Source of the DNA: Plantimonas leprariae
GTDB lineage: Bacteria; Pseudomonadota; Alphaproteobacteria; Rhizobiales; Rhizobiaceae
Direction: 5' to 3'
DNA: 64,000 nt
Assembly: GCF_008802405.1 (NCBI RefSeq)
Contig: NZ_VZDO01000011.1
Location: 62,001-126,000 of the forward strand
The notes beneath the pieces are model-generated. The model saw nothing but the letters and a program-made list of their open reading frames with translations. It was not told the DNA's origin and made no database searches. Positions 33,264 through 39,749 of this stretch are shown here, one piece after another. The position numbers were made by a program, and so were the translations under genes. Positions within the stretch are counted from its first letter, which is position 1; the number at the start of each line of letters is the position of its first letter.

Positions 33264-35267
33264 TCAGGTCTCGCTTACCGTGTCCCGTCCGTCCTTCGCC
33301 GGAGGCGGCAACGAGGTGGCCACCGCCGCGCCGATCGCCTCGTCGGTGAGGTGTCGGCCGCCCGCGTCGACGCTGACGCGGGGGCGCGCGAAGCGGATCC
33401 CGGCCCCGGCGAAGGCGTCGCGGACCCGGGCGTAGACCTCGCGCTGCAACGCGAACTGTTCGCCCGGTACCGCGGTGAACTTCACCCCGACCACCATGCC
33501 GTAGGGCTCCATCCGGCGGACGCCCTGGAACTTCACCGGGTCGAGCAGCGACTTTCCGATTTCCTCGTCCGCGGCGATCTCCGCGCCGATGCCGCGCACC
33601 AAGCGCTTCGCCTCGCGCAGGTCCGTGTCGAAGTCGACGAGGAACTCGAGCTTCACGATCGCCCAGTCGCGGCTCTGGTTGTTGACGACGCCGATCTGGC
33701 CGAACGGCACGGTGTAGATCGCCCCGCGCGAGTGCCGGAGCTTCATCGAGCGGATCGACAGGCTCTCGACGGTGCCCTTGGCGCTGCCGACCTCGATGTA
33801 CTCGCCGATCCGAAAGGCGTCGTCGGCGAGGAAGAACAGGCCGGAGATGACGTCCTTGACCAGCGCCTGCGAACCGAAGCCGACAGCGATGCCGAAGATG
33901 CCCGCTCCGGCGAGGAGCGGGCCGATGTGGACGCCCATCGAGGCTAGCACGACCATCCCCGTCACTGTGACGATGAGGGCGGCCGCGATGGTGCGCAGCA
34001 GCGGCACGAAGGTCTCGATCCGCGAGGCATGCCGCCCGGCATGCGCGTCGGTGTCCGGCGGGACGATGCCTGTTGCGCGGCCGGCGGCTAGGCCGTCGAG
34101 CGCCGCCTCCGCGACCTGCCAGAGAAGGCTGCCGAGCGCCACCGCGACGGCGACGTCGATCATGACGCGGGCGACGCCTTCGCCGAGGCGGTCGGAGGCC
34201 ATCTCCACCAGGTGGACGTCGAGGAGCCGGGCGAGGACCAGCCAGAACGCGATGAACAGGCCGAGCCGGGCGCAGCGTCGCACGGTCGCCCGCCACGGCC
34301 GGACCGTGCCCTCGCTGCCGATCGTCGGCAACGGCAGCAATGCCATCGTCGCGGGAAGCGCCCCGAGGGCGAGAAGCGCCAGCGCGCCGGACAAGAACGC
34401 GGCCGGACCCTCGCGCAGCGCCGAGACGATCGTGGCCGCAGCGATCAGGAAGAGCACCGAGCCGAAGAACCACTCCGCCCGCCGCGACAGGAGATGATGG
34501 ATCGGGTCATGTCCGGAAGCAGGGTCCGACGAGGCGATGGAAGTCGATCCGTGTTCGAGCGTGCGGAAGCGTGCCAGGAGCGCGACCGCGCCCGCCATCA
34601 GGACGAGCCACAGGCACATGCCGAGGAAGAGGCGAGCGTCGACCGGGGTCCCGGCGAGCCGCATCAGGCCGAGCGTCGTGTAGCCGACGGCCGTCACAGT
34701 CAGTTCGGCGGTCACGAGCGCCGCGGTCGTCCGGTCCGCGGCGACGCCGCCGCGCCTGAGCGCCAGCCCGGCCAGCGCGGCGTTGAGGACGACGAACCCG
34801 ACGGACAGGACGACGACAAGGGACACGGCGCGCACCCGATCGGCGACGGGAAAGGCGAGGTGGACGAGGACGCCGGCGGCGACGAAGGAGGCGCTACCGA
34901 GGAACCAGCCGCGAAAGCCGTGTTCCGGTGCGACGAGGCGCTCGACGAGCCGCCGCGCCGCCTGCGCAACGGCGACGAGGACGAGCGAGCAGGCGGCGAG
35001 TGCGAGCCACTCGCGCGGGGTCCCGACCCAAGCCGCCGTCCGGGCGAGGTTGTCCGGCACGAGGTCGGCGGCGGCGATGAGGCGGCGGAGCGTGTCCGAG
35101 GCCCACGTGGCCGCCGCGACCATGCCGGAGGCGTCCATCATGCCGGAGGCGCCAGTCGGGACGGGCGAGCCGTCGGCGGCTTCCTGGGCCGTAGCCATCC
35201 CGGGCACGAGTGCCGCGAACGCGACAAGGCGCGTCGGCCATCCCCGAATGACGTTCGGTTTCTCCAT
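33264..35267 (-). CDS. MscS-family mechanosensitive channel
   Basis: 667 residues from ATG 35267 (MEKPNVIRGWPTRL); an ATG at 35321 is less likely. A signal peptide (FAALVPGMATA) is followed by about ten membrane helices. The MscS core has GIFGIAVGFGSQALVKDVIS (the pore-lining TM3 region), then GLFFLADDAFRIGEYIEVG and VPFGQIGVVNNQSRDW of the beta domain, then a C-terminal domain. The long N-terminal part resembles larger MscS paralogues. A GTAAC element is 78 nt upstream. It is convergent with the DUF2092 pair. Confidence 0.88.
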   Translation of the reverse strand: MEKPNVIRGWPTRLVAFAALVPGMATAQEAADGSPVPTGASGMMDASGMVAAATWASDTLRRLIAAADLVPDNLARTAAWVGTPREWLALAACSLVLVAVAQAARRLVERLVAPEHGFRGWFLGSASFVAAGVLVHLAFPVADRVRAVSLVVVLSVGFVVLNAALAGLALRRGGVAADRTTAALVTAELTVTAVGYTTLGLMRLAGTPVDARLFLGMCLWLVLMAGAVALLARFRTLEHGSTSIASSDPASGHDPIHHLLSRRAEWFFGSVLFLIAAATIVSALREGPAAFLSGALALLALGALPATMALLPLPTIGSEGTVRPWRATVRRCARLGLFIAFWLVLARLLDVHLVEMASDRLGEGVARVMIDVAVAVALGSLLWQVAEAALDGLAAGRATGIVPPDTDAHAGRHASRIETFVPLLRTIAAALIVTVTGMVVLASMGVHIGPLLAGAGIFGIAVGFGSQALVKDVISGLFFLADDAFRIGEYIEVGSAKGTVESLSIRSMKLRHSRGAIYTVPFGQIGVVNNQSRDWAIVKLEFLVDFDTDLREAKRLVRGIGAEIAADEEIGKSLLDPVKFQGVRRMEPYGMVVGVKFTAVPGEQFALQREVYARVRDAFAGAGIRFARPRVSVDAGGRHLTDEAIGAAVATSLPPPAKDGRDTVSET

Positions 35268-35344
35268 TCCCGGCTTCCGATTCGGTCGACGATCCGACCT
35301 TGTGGCCGGGAACCGTCGCACCGAGCGGCCGCTGGCGCCAGCGA

Positions 35345-35355: not shown

Positions 35356-35570
35356 ATCCTCCGCCGGACATCGCGGAGACGCTTGCGAAGGCTTGGCGCC
35401 GCGGTGCAGCGAGATTTAGACCATGCCTCGAACAGGCATCACAGGCGGTCGCGCTCGACGTACGCCCGGAAACGCTCGCGGATCTGCGCCCTCTGGTTCC
35501 GCAGTTGCCTCATGACGGGACGCGCGTCGGCTCCCATGACCTCCTCCGCCCGCTTGACGTAGGTCCAGAA

Positions 35571-36860
35571 CTACCAGTCCGCCTTGTCGCAGACAGCCTC
35601 GAATTCGCGGACGCGGCCGAAACGCGCCTCGATGCGTCGGTAGTCGTAGCGGTCGCAAATCTCGTCGACAGACCACGAGGCGTATCTCCGCGACTGCGCG
35701 ATGGCCTCGCGGCGAACGACGCCGGCGATCTTCTGCCGGAGCACCGACAGCGTCGAGTCGCGCAGGTGGACCCGACGGCCGTCGAAGCGGAAGCCCAGGT
35801 ACTCGAAACGCTTGTTCGGGGAGCCGGCGCTGACGGACGCACAGCGCAGTTCGCCGTCATGGCGGGTGAACCTGTGGATGGCCGTCTTGCCGTCGGCGAT
35901 CTTCAGTTCGTCGCCTTGGAGGGTTATCGCCGACGCGACGGTCGCCGCGAGCGCACCCGGAGCGATCGCGTCGGCGGGGACGACGAACAGGATGTCGTCG
36001 CTGTAGCGGCTGTAGTGGCCGCCGAGCCCCGTCGCCAGCTCCTTCATGTCCCTGTCGAAGTCGAGCATGTAGATGTTGGCGAGGAGGTCCGAGATCGGCG
36101 TTCCCTGCGGGATCCCGAACCTCTCCTTCCGCGTCACCGCGATCTTCGGGTGCCTGCCGCCCTCGCCGAACACCACCTCCCGCATGACCCGCGCGTCGCA
36201 CAGGCGGATCGGGATCCTGCGACGGTCGACGAGGAAACCCTCCACGGGATCGCGGCGACCCCGCACCGTCTTCTCGCCCCAGAAGCCCAGCCGACGGTAG
36301 ACCTCGATCTGGTCGACCTCGACGTATTTCGTCACACTCCTGAAGACCCTGTAGTGGTCGGGCGGAAGGTCTCGGACCCCGAGGAGGGATGCCCACACCG
36401 CCTTCAGGCGGGCGTGGTCGAGGCTCTCGAAGAAGCCCTTGATGTCGAGGCAGAGCGTGTGGCAGTCGCCGAGCCGCCGGATGTGCCCGATCGCGTCGTA
36501 GGCGAAGTCGATGTTGCACTTGTTCCCGCGGCGGTACGGGCTCGGAATCCGGCGGTAGGCGGCGACGGCGTCGCTCAGTCCAAGCGCGGCGAGCCGCTCC
36601 TCGTAGAGGCACGACAACCAGTCGCGGTAGCGCGTGTAGATGTAGGCGTCGGTTCGGGCCGCGTAGCGGATCGGCCTTTTCTTCGGCGCCTTTCGTGGAC
36701 GGTCCGGACGCCGGAAGTACCGCTTCACGTCGTCGAACAGGAGCAGAGGATGGAACGCGTGGGCCGCGACGGCCACGGGGTCGGTCGCGAGATCGGTGGC
36801 CCCCGCCGCGCTGAGCGGACTGTCGAAGTGCGGGTAGTTCTTCAGCTTCGCTGGCGGCAT
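35571..36860 (-). CDS. drt2: Defence-associated reverse transcriptase, DRT2 type
   Basis: 429 residues from ATG 36860 (MPPAKLKNYPHFDSP); an ATG at 36908 adds 16 residues. DRT2-like features run in order: NYPHFD at the N-terminus, AHAFHPLL, RTDAYIYTRY, GNKCNIDFAYDAI, the catalytic CLDIKGFFESLDHARLK (first Asp), LPPDHYRVFRSVTKY, RFGIPQGTPISDLLANIYML, and the second catalytic motif RYSDDILFVV near residue 286. There is no maturase or endonuclease domain, so it is not a group II intron protein. DRT2 enzymes reverse-transcribe an RNA encoded just upstream and protect against phages. The matching RNA region is at 36943-37200. Confidence 0.88.
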   Translation of the reverse strand: MPPAKLKNYPHFDSPLSAAGATDLATDPVAVAAHAFHPLLLFDDVKRYFRRPDRPRKAPKKRPIRYAARTDAYIYTRYRDWLSCLYEERLAALGLSDAVAAYRRIPSPYRRGNKCNIDFAYDAIGHIRRLGDCHTLCLDIKGFFESLDHARLKAVWASLLGVRDLPPDHYRVFRSVTKYVEVDQIEVYRRLGFWGEKTVRGRRDPVEGFLVDRRRIPIRLCDARVMREVVFGEGGRHPKIAVTRKERFGIPQGTPISDLLANIYMLDFDRDMKELATGLGGHYSRYSDDILFVVPADAIAPGALAATVASAITLQGDELKIADGKTAIHRFTRHDGELRCASVSAGSPNKRFEYLGFRFDGRRVHLRDSTLSVLRQKIAGVVRREAIAQSRRYASWSVDEICDRYDYRRIEARFGRVREFEAVCDKADW

Positions 36861-36942
36861 CGTCCACGGGCGGGGCGGTGCGAGAAGGGACGCTGGTCGG
36901 GATGGCATTCCGTCGTCCCAGCGCCCCTTGCCGTTTCTGAGC

Positions 36943-37200
36943 GAGACCCCGGGTGGGATCTCTAATGCTGCCGTGTACCGAACATGCTGCGGTATGCTGG
37001 TCGTGCCGTCCTCATCGGACTGTCGACCGTCCTGCCGGAACTTGCCGGCGATCCAACCAAGGAGATGATCTCGTTGTTCATCGACCTGATTTCGTCGCGG
37101 CCCGTTGACAGGGTCAACCCACCACTCGCAAGCCTGGCGCCTGCGATGCGCGAGGATTGGTTCAGCCGCCCGATTCGCGCAAGCCCCGGTTGAAGGATTC
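36943..37200 (-). ncRNA. Putative DRT2 template RNA
   Basis: The 480 nt between the RT gene and the gene at 37343 contain no protein gene on the minus strand that resembles anything known. DRT2 systems encode a structured RNA here. On the minus strand I see a perfect 6-bp hairpin GTTGACCCTGTCAAC (37118-37104), a GCCGG/CCGGC hairpin (37052-37037), and next to the RT gene an 8-bp hairpin GAGATCCC-ACCC-GGGGTCTC (36962-36943) with one G-U pair. Exact ends cannot be read from the sequence. A TTGAAC box near 37210 could be part of a promoter. Confidence 0.55.
36984..37118 (+). other. Predicted 135-nt neo repeat unit (cDNA-sense strand)
   Basis: AAC at 36981-36983 recurs exactly 135 nt later at 37116-37118, which would let cDNA ending in AAC re-pair with the RNA and restart. 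The unit is 45 codons with no stop in the cDNA-sense frame, and the head-to-tail junction keeps the frame. It encodes two amphipathic helices, one around GRAVLIGLSTVLPELAG and one around TKEMISLFIDLIS. Joining two units places TTGACA (37105-37110) 17 bp from TATGCT (36993-36998), and CAGGG 5 nt before an ATG. Not a chromosomal gene by itself. Confidence 0.5.
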
Positions 37201-37342: not shown

Positions 37343-39408
37343 TCACCCCCGCCCCTCCATGACGAGTTCCAGCCTCGACGGCTCCCGGCCGGCCCGGCCT
37401 TCCGCCGCCAGCACGGCGGCGACGCGCTCGATGGTCTCCCTCTCGGCCCGGACGATCGCCCTGGCCCGTTCGAAGGCACCGTCGAGGATCTTCCGCACGG
37501 CCAGCCGGAGCGTGGCGTCCCAGCGGATGGCCTCGACGCCTTCCCCGCGGGCCGCCACGCGGTGGACCAATCCGTCGCCGAGCCCGAACGACGCCTCGAT
37601 CGCCACCGCGATCGCCGTGGCGTTCGCGATGTCGCTTCCCTCGGGTCCGCCCGCGCCGTCGCCGCGGTCGCCGACGATCTCCTCCTCGGCGGCCGTGCCG
37701 GCGAGCAGGACGGCGATCTCAGCGAGGCAGCTTCCGCGGGTCCGGTCGAAGCCCGCACGCCGCGTGAACTCGGTGCCGGGCGAGGTTCCCTCGCGCAGGC
37801 GGCGGTCGACCCTCGCCTCGACCGGGTCGCTGCCCGACTCGTCCGCGAGCGCGGTGCCGACCACGAGGTGCGCGGCTTCGTGCACGCAGACCCTTCGGAA
37901 CAAGGCGTCCGACATCCGTTCCTCGGGCGGCAGGCCCGCCTCGACATCGGCGAGGGTCAGTTCCTCCCGCCGCCGCCGCGCCCGCCGCCGACCGTCGCGG
38001 ACCAGCAGCTCGATCTCCGCGCCCGTCGCACCCTCCATGCGTTCGGCCAACGGCCCGAGGTCCGCCGCCTCCATCGCGCCGCGCAGGTGGTGGCGGAGGA
38101 TCCCGACGCGTGCCGCGGCATCGGGCAGCCGCATGCGCAGTACCCGGTCAAGCCGTCCCGGCCGCGTGATCGCGGGATCCACCAGCTCGGGGTAATTGGT
38201 AGCGCCGACCACCACGACGCCCTCGCGTCCCGCCGCGCCGTCGAGCTGCTCGAGCAGGCCGTCGATGACCTGACGCGAGTAGGCGGCGTAGCGGTCGCCC
38301 GGATCGACGCGCGACCCGAAGGCGTCCGCCTCGTCGAGGAACAGCACGCACGGCGCCGACTTCCTCGCCTCGTCGAACGCCTGCCTCATGGCCTTGAGCA
38401 GGTCGCCGAGATGGCCGCGCGCCTGCCACGCGGCGAAGGAATGGAGGGCGCCGACTTCCTCGCCTCGTCGAACGCCTGCCTCATGGCCTTGAGCAGGTCG
38501 CCGAGATGGCCGCGCGCCTGCCACGCGGCGAAGGAATGGAGATGGACGGGAACGCCGCACGACCTGCCCAGGGCCGCGGCGAACATCGTCTTGCCGACCC
38601 CGGGCGGCCCCGTCACGAGGACGCCCCGGTCGACGTCGGTCCACGGGATCGCGCCGGCGCGGTAGTCGGCGATGTCGCGCACGAGTTCGGCGCCCCACTC
38701 GCCGACCTCGCCGAGGCCCGACAGTTCCTCCAGCCGGGGTCCGGAGCTCGCCGTCGGCGGGTTCGCTGCCGGCGGCCCGGCCGGCTCCGCTTCCGCCGCG
38801 ACCGCCGCGAGCAGCCTTCGCGCGACGCCGAGGCTGCGCTCGACGCCGCGGCCCTTCACGACGACGCTGTCGAGAAGGTCGATCGGCAGGGAGGCGACGA
38901 GGTCGAGCCCTTGCCGATCCGGCGCCCTCCCCACGATGGCCATGAACGCCCCGCGCAGGACGCGCCGATCGACCGGACCGAAGTCCACGACGCCCTCGGC
39001 CGTGGCGAGGAACGCCCCGGGCACCGCGTCCCGGGACGGGAACAGGAACGCCGCGCGCTCGCCCCCCTTCGCGGCCTCCCGAACGAGGGTCTTGAGGTTG
39101 CGCTTGCCGTTGGACGAGACATCGGTGCGGTCGTAGATCGAGACGTCGAAGCCGTAGTTCGCGGTGAGGTTGGCGCCCATGATGTCCCTTGCGGCGGAGG
39201 ACACGGCATCGACGGCCCCCTCCGACACGCCCGCGATGCCGACCGTGCACGGTTCGTGGCACAGCACGTGGTGGAGGTTCGCCTGCCGCAGCGCGTGGAC
39301 GATCATCCCGCGGGCGACGAAGGCGGACGGGGACAGGTGTCGCGGCGGCAACTGCCTCTTCTTTCCTGCGACGCGCGCCGCCTGCTTCCCGAGCGAGAAA
39401 ACGGTCAT
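37343..39408 (-). pseudogene. AAA+ ATPase/M41-type protease gene, frameshifted by a tandem duplication
   Basis: The N-terminal part starts at ATG 39408 (MTVFSLGKQAARVAG). It has a helical domain and Walker A VTGPPGVGKTMFAAALG, but runs out of frame in the duplicated segment and stops at 38386 (340 residues). The remaining coding frame carries Walker B CVLFLDEADAFGSR, a sensor and arginine-finger region (RPGRLDRVLRMRLPD), and an FtsH-like M41 protease domain with the zinc motif HEAAH. Deleting one copy of the 95-bp repeat at 38352-38541 restores one frame of about 655 residues. Its start overlaps the DUF6634 stop (ATGA). Confidence 0.8.
38352..38541. repeat. Perfect 95-bp tandem duplication inside the AAA gene
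   Basis: 38352-38446 and 38447-38541 are identical by reading: both begin GGCGCCGACTTCC and end GGAATGGAG. The length 95 is not a multiple of three, so the copy shifts the frame between Walker A and Walker B of the ATPase. Confidence 0.9.
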
Positions 39409-39749
39409 TGCCGTCCCCTCCGGTCGGCGTCGGCGTCGCGCGGGCCGAGCGCGTACCATCTCGAGAGCGTGCGCGCGTAGCCGTGGTCGGGCGCCCAGAC
39501 CCACAGGTCCGAGGTCACGCCCATCCGTCCGTCGCGGATGTCGGGGTGGCCGACGATGTGTCCCCGAAGGCAGGGCGCCGGGCGCGTGTCGAGGACCCAG
39601 CCACGGATGCCGGCCGATCCCTCGATCGAGGCGGGATCGGGGTGGCGGCCGAGTTTCAGGGCCTCGAGGTCGGCGACGAGGCGCTTCAAGCGGTCGAGGT
39701 GATCGTCGAGGCCGAGGATGTCGCCCTGGGGCGAGACGATGATGGTCAT
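39405..39749 (-). CDS. DUF6634 family protein
   Basis: 114 residues from ATG 39749. The sequence IRGWVLDTRPAPCLRGHIVGHPDI, then TSDLWVWAPDHGYARTLSRWYALG, fits the DUF6634 family common in rhizobia and relatives, whose ending 'ARTLSRWYRLG' is highly conserved. It is probably cytoplasmic and its function is unknown. It sits between the TnsA-like gene (71 nt upstream) and the AAA gene, whose start it overlaps, so the three form an operon. Confidence 0.75.
   Translation of the reverse strand: MTIIVSPQGDILGLDDHLDRLKRLVADLEALKLGRHPDPASIEGSAGIRGWVLDTRPAPCLRGHIVGHPDIRDGRMGVTSDLWVWAPDHGYARTLSRWYALGPRDADADRRGRQ

Follow-up and report, generated by a model that had tools for sequence, protein, structure and literature searches.

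The window, a 64-kb stretch of Plantimonas leprariae DNA, contains a reverse transcriptase (RT) gene on the minus strand (35571-36860) and, upstream of it and co-oriented, a predicted DRT2 ncRNA (36870-37150, minus strand; about 280 nt, ends approximate). By its sequence the RT is a DRT2 (UG2) enzyme, as the preliminary description had proposed. Three comparisons agree on this: PADLOC Drt2 (6.3e-113), NCBIfam Drt2 (1e-95, the best match, yet at 320.9 bits below the cut-off of 390) and the best PDB match, the solved DRT2 structure 9c0i (3.3e-56). The catalytic YxDD is present as RYSDD, and its Y-D-D columns are invariant. The mechanically called RT frame is 35571-36908 (minus strand). The loop of an ncRNA hairpin (the tower, see below) contains ATG 36908, and related RTs start near MxxW...LKxYPHFD; translation therefore probably begins at ATG 36860.

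The RT is flanked by an MscS-like channel gene (33264-35321) and an AAA gene (38617-39504). A search of five congeners gave no close counterpart of either gene, suggesting that the RT lies in a strain-specific stretch; the RT is likewise absent from these congeners. The AAA ATPase/M41-peptidase-like gene adjoining the RT locus contains an exact 95-bp tandem duplication (38352-38541), whose length is not divisible by three, and is thereby split into two frames.

The ncRNA is predicted from a position and structure common to about 60 homologues, and the MFE z-score is -3.09. Its length is close to the 280-281 nt of the Klebsiella pneumoniae (Kpn) ncRNA (PMC12039810, PMC11100668). A search of the window with Rfam at gathering thresholds gave no match. 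Three hairpins can be recognized, all on the minus strand. First, the 5' handle hairpin, TCGCAGGC/GCTTGCGA (37126-37146), is found in both the MFE and the centroid folds. Its stem is kept by compensatory change, as TCGCGGGC/GCCCGCGA in Aureimonas sp. Leaf324 (L016) and TCGCAGGC/GCCTGCGA in Hansschlegelia plantiphila (L017). Second, a buttress-like post-template hairpin, GAGAUCCC/GGGGUCUC (36943-36962), is predicted by folding and has equivalents in homologues. Third, the tower hairpin (36887-36927) is indicated by folding and by covarying pairs over 46 loci. The apical loop of the tower (36904-36911) is predicted to pair with the post-template strand at 36969-36972. The two are complementary in many loci (for example, AACGCAC/GTGCGTT, TTGTGC/GCACAA and GTTGCGG/CCGCAAC), and this pseudoknot pairing comes to 6.2 pairs versus a mean of 5.4 in a shuffled control that is itself too permissive to decide the point.

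The repeat unit and its junction promoter

Between the handle and the post-template hairpin lies the predicted template region, or neo repeat unit (36984-37118, plus strand, the cDNA sense). The trinucleotide AAC occurs at 36981-36983 and again at 37116-37118, 135 nt apart, and the unit comprises 45 codons that are free of stops in frame 0 and keep this frame from end to start, as the preliminary description had reported. The encoded peptide is MLRYAGRAVLIGLSTVLPELAGDPTKEMISLFIDLISSRPVDRVN. The same description had cautioned that a three-base match is weak alone, and the caution was justified. In the 64-kb window, units of 105-150 nt that combine a three-base repeat with a stop-free frame number 24,401 (plus strand) and 25,437 (minus strand). 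With about 49,800 such units, these two properties alone carry no evidential weight. However, adding the condition that TTGACA end 8 nt before the end of the unit leaves exactly one, 36984-37118.

This TTGACA (37105-37110, plus strand) is a -35 element close to the end of the unit, nearly invariant in the clade described below. The -10 element, TATGCT (36993-36998, plus strand), lies 9 nt into the unit, close to its start. The chromosome carries these boxes in inverted order, and the arrangement TTGACA-17 bp-TATGCT arises solely where two units are joined head to tail. This combination is unique in the window and agrees with the junction promoter proposed earlier. Further along the unit there is a Shine-Dalgarno-like AAGGAG (37059-37064, plus strand), recognized by its motif and by the family test described below, and then the predicted Neo start codon TTG (37074-37076, plus strand), in frame 0 and 9 nt after GGAG. 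ATG 36984 is upstream of the -10 element and so cannot serve as the first start codon in a transcript from the junction; the start is probably TTG 37074. As read from the DNA, the promoter halves, the Shine-Dalgarno site and the start codon are one predicted transcription and translation unit only across the head-to-tail junction.

Homologous loci

A scan of 84,980 genomes yielded 80 DRT2 loci, to which loci from further searches were added. The closest relatives of the RT are those of Aureimonas sp. Leaf324 (78% identical) and Hansschlegelia plantiphila (65%). Nearly all alphaproteobacterial RTs have the same layout upstream, in ncRNA sense: GTTNNNNC-TGTCAA, about 100-130 nt, ANNNTA, nine bases and GTC or GTT. 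TGTCAA corresponds to the reverse complement of the -35 element TTGACA, and ANNNTA to that of the -10 element.

A frame-blind automatic extraction based on this layout returned 53 units. Their lengths were multiples of three in 47/53 cases, and all 47 of these were stop-free in one common frame. The automatic regular expression misplaced the units of the window and of locus L034. During curation about 17 loci were anchored by visual inspection, guided by the motif and not by the frame, and in L019 a one-base shift preserved the distance to the -35 element. The curated set contains 62 units. The preliminary description had suggested examining homologues for a length divisible by three and for the absence of stops: 57 of the 62 units, with lengths of 117-150 nt, have both, all 57 being open in the same frame. 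After clustering at 75% identity, 38 of 43 clusters are divisible by three (binomial P ~1e-13 against 1/3). Frame 0 of these 38 clusters contains no stop in 1,711 codons, versus 51-142 stops in each of the other five circular frames. As a positive control, the same extraction applied to ACA-type loci (see below) gave units divisible by three in 10/12, and 9 of these 10 have a frame free of stops.

The neo frame is marked independently by the predicted translation signals. Frame 0 contains a Shine-Dalgarno site with an ATG, TTG or GTG 4-10 nt downstream in 49/57 family units, whereas the other frames give 3 and 1.

These data bear on two simpler explanations. A missing stop and a three-base repeat could coincide by chance in GC-rich DNA, and the roughly 49,800 comparable units mentioned above illustrate how easily this happens when the promoter is left aside. 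The unit is unique once the promoter phase is required, it is conserved in about 60 loci, and the family test rules chance out; we give this explanation practically no credence. Alternatively, the unit could be part of a small conventional gene on the plus strand that happens to be antisense to an unrelated leader, and an ATG-started ORF (36984-37193, 69 aa) is indeed present. However, homologues fail to keep a linear ORF; what they preserve is a circular frame in units that differ in length, and promoter and start fall into the right sequence only where two units meet. The ORF has no family match, a Pfam search with the 69-aa and 85-aa ORFs covering the unit giving none. A small gene is therefore very improbable. 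The interpretation as a neo template unit, made earlier from the window alone, is instead supported by the promoter phase, the approximately 60 homologues, the conserved Shine-Dalgarno site with its start and the conserved ncRNA scaffold.

Some loci depart from this pattern. In five alphaproteobacterial loci (L053, L061, L070, L071 and L079) the promoter halves are kept, the length is not divisible by three and stops are present; they may be degenerate copies or use another register. By the motifs used, neither layout (ACA or GT) is present in the distant DRT2s L077, L090, L092, L093, L098 and L104 (from Planctomycetota, Thermodesulfobacteriota and others). One DRT2 with the alphaproteobacterial layout (L096, 2501-3820) is on an IMG/VR viral contig, its unit nearly identical to that of Sulfitobacter sabulilitoris (L032), which suggests carriage by a phage or prophage. 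The phage records searched contained three distant DRT2 matches only.

The predicted Neo peptide was said earlier to form two helices in its 45 residues. AlphaFold2, run with an alignment of 15 homologous units, likewise predicts two helices, spanning residues 2-19 and residues 24-38, with a modest pLDDT of 63. The peptide of the window is hydrophobic on average (GRAVY 0.41), and GRAVY is above zero in 55/57 family units. Only Y4, E27 and D42 are invariant in the 15-member alignment, and they coincide with the -10 element, the Shine-Dalgarno site and the -35 element. The invariant Neo residues of KpnDRT2 coincide with the same three elements (PMC12039810, PMC11100668). Tests of codon position and of synonymous change between close units gave no clear third-position or synonymous excess and no dN/dS-like signal. 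Amino-acid conservation is therefore no argument here.

The jump motif and the state of the locus

In ncRNA sense the two AAC trinucleotides become GUU. The 5' copy (37116-37118, minus strand) would be the last bases copied in each round; it is GTT in 52/62 homologous loci and CTT in 8/62. The 3' copy (36981-36983, minus strand) lies just outside the unit and is GUU here, as in nine other loci, and GUC in 40/62 homologues. Over the 62 loci the two copies share the G in 60 and the T in all 62, and the third base in only 8; a looser GUYGAA similarity follows. The AAC/GTT repeat proposed as the jump site thus stands in its GT core, whereas the complete trinucleotide is not conserved: the GTT of the window is one instance of a broader GU(U/C) motif.

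A tree of 73 RTs places loci of this GU type and loci of the ACA type (12 gamma-, beta- and other loci) on opposite sides of one branch with support 100/99. The tree does not include KpnDRT2, whose ACA type is taken from the papers (PMC12039810, PMC11100668). ACA flanks are absent from the locus in the window (GTT/GTT; most of the clade GTT/GTC), which places it outside the KpnDRT2-like subgroup. The two types also differ in their leaders: the distance from the -10 element to the Neo start has a median of 72 nt (range 57-87) in the GU clade versus 15-32 nt in ACA-type loci. In the literature searched (subscription papers and preprints lie outside it), we found no description of a GU-type DRT2 clade.

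How might such an imperfect repeat direct template jumping? At roughly even odds, this alphaproteobacterial branch makes its neo genes by a non-ACA jump, in which the nascent cDNA primes the next round from an imperfect match: two terminal base pairs, in most cases followed by a mismatch and then by scattered pairs. RNA structure would set the register to the base, and no perfect trinucleotide repeat would be needed. We regard it as somewhat less probable that another register or mechanism operates, the RT being halted at the 5' handle structure and re-entering after two terminal base pairs and scattered downstream pairs, so that the GUU/GUU of the window would be partly coincidental. The sharing of G and T but rarely of the third base, together with the looser GUYGAA similarity, would fit this second mechanism, and the GUU of the 3' copy in ten loci, the window included, speaks against it; unit length and frame are unchanged either way.

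The RT itself has a premature stop. An in-frame TAG (35571-35573) after residue 445 (about residue 429 counted from ATG 36860) cuts off a tail that is conserved in relatives. The 43 codons behind it (35439-35570, minus strand) are still open and about 79% identical to those of Aureimonas sp. Leaf324, so the TAG looks recent. The truncated enzyme lacks a complete ncRNA-binding thumb, and the elongated thumb is reported to hold the ncRNA (PMC12039810). The incomplete thumb is peculiar to this copy and does not characterize the clade. Because the TAG cuts the RT, activity in this strain is doubtful, and the copy may have little or no activity. Several other homologous RT loci (L018, L019, L034, L050, L065, L068 and L080) likewise have stops within the matched stretch.

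The chances that the locus is dead or dying, its anatomy real and no ccDNA made in this strain, fall just short of even. Besides the truncated thumb, there is drift in the 3' jump copy, which reads GUUCGG here and GUCGAA in the closest relative. On the other hand, the RT frame is otherwise intact, and the unit frame, the promoter halves and the scaffold are all kept; the TAG may also be a sequencing error or a tolerated truncation. Whatever its present activity, the locus is very probably, judging by its sequence, a DRT2 anti-phage locus of the GU-type alphaproteobacterial clade with a neo template.

Proposed mechanism and comparison with known systems

The neo mechanism is known from KpnDRT2 (PMC12039810, PMC11100668), and by homology to it a cDNA concatemer and a toxic Neo protein are predicted in the GU clade. 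Upon phage infection, the RT would copy the template up to the 5' GUU. The 3' end of the cDNA (...AC) would re-anneal on the 3' GU(U/C), and the next round would begin. The concatemeric cDNA would become double-stranded and be transcribed by host RNA polymerase from the junction promoter. Ribosomes would initiate at TTG 37074 and translate an ORF without end, and the repetitive, hydrophobic and helical Neo would lead to cell arrest and abortive infection.

KpnDRT2, a member of UG2 group 9, resembles the locus in the window in several respects. Both have a DRT2 RT with no extra domain and an upstream ncRNA of about 280 nt with a 5' handle, template, tower and pseudoknot, the predicted pairing of tower loop and post-template strand in GU-type loci being the same in kind as the KpnDRT2 pseudoknot. 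In both, the unit is divisible by three, its stop-free frame is antisense to the ncRNA, the -35 and -10 elements are joined at 17 bp across the junction, and a Shine-Dalgarno site and start lie in frame ahead of a helical Neo. The differences are equally distinct. The jump motif is GU(U/C) in the GU clade and ACA in KpnDRT2. The junction splits the 17-bp spacer 8+9 in the GU clade, this locus included, versus 6+11 in the ACA type, KpnDRT2 included. The unit is 135 nt here versus 120 nt in KpnDRT2, and the Neo sequences are unrelated. Finally, the RT of the window is truncated by the TAG, unlike that of KpnDRT2.

DRT10 and telomerase likewise carry out RNA-templated synthesis of tandem-repeat DNA, and differ in having no coding repeat and in belonging to another RT family (PMC12632851); DRT9, also a class 2 DRT with an ncRNA, differs in making a homopolymer DNA product with no neo gene (PMC12483538). 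Within DRT2, Neo annotation has been described as challenging in divergent clades, for which other mechanisms were suggested (PMC11100668). The GU clade appears to build its gene in the same way, from another jump motif and with a longer leader, and some 57 additional candidate neo genes can now be listed. Comparing ACA with GU jump sites asks directly how the register of programmed template jumping is set.
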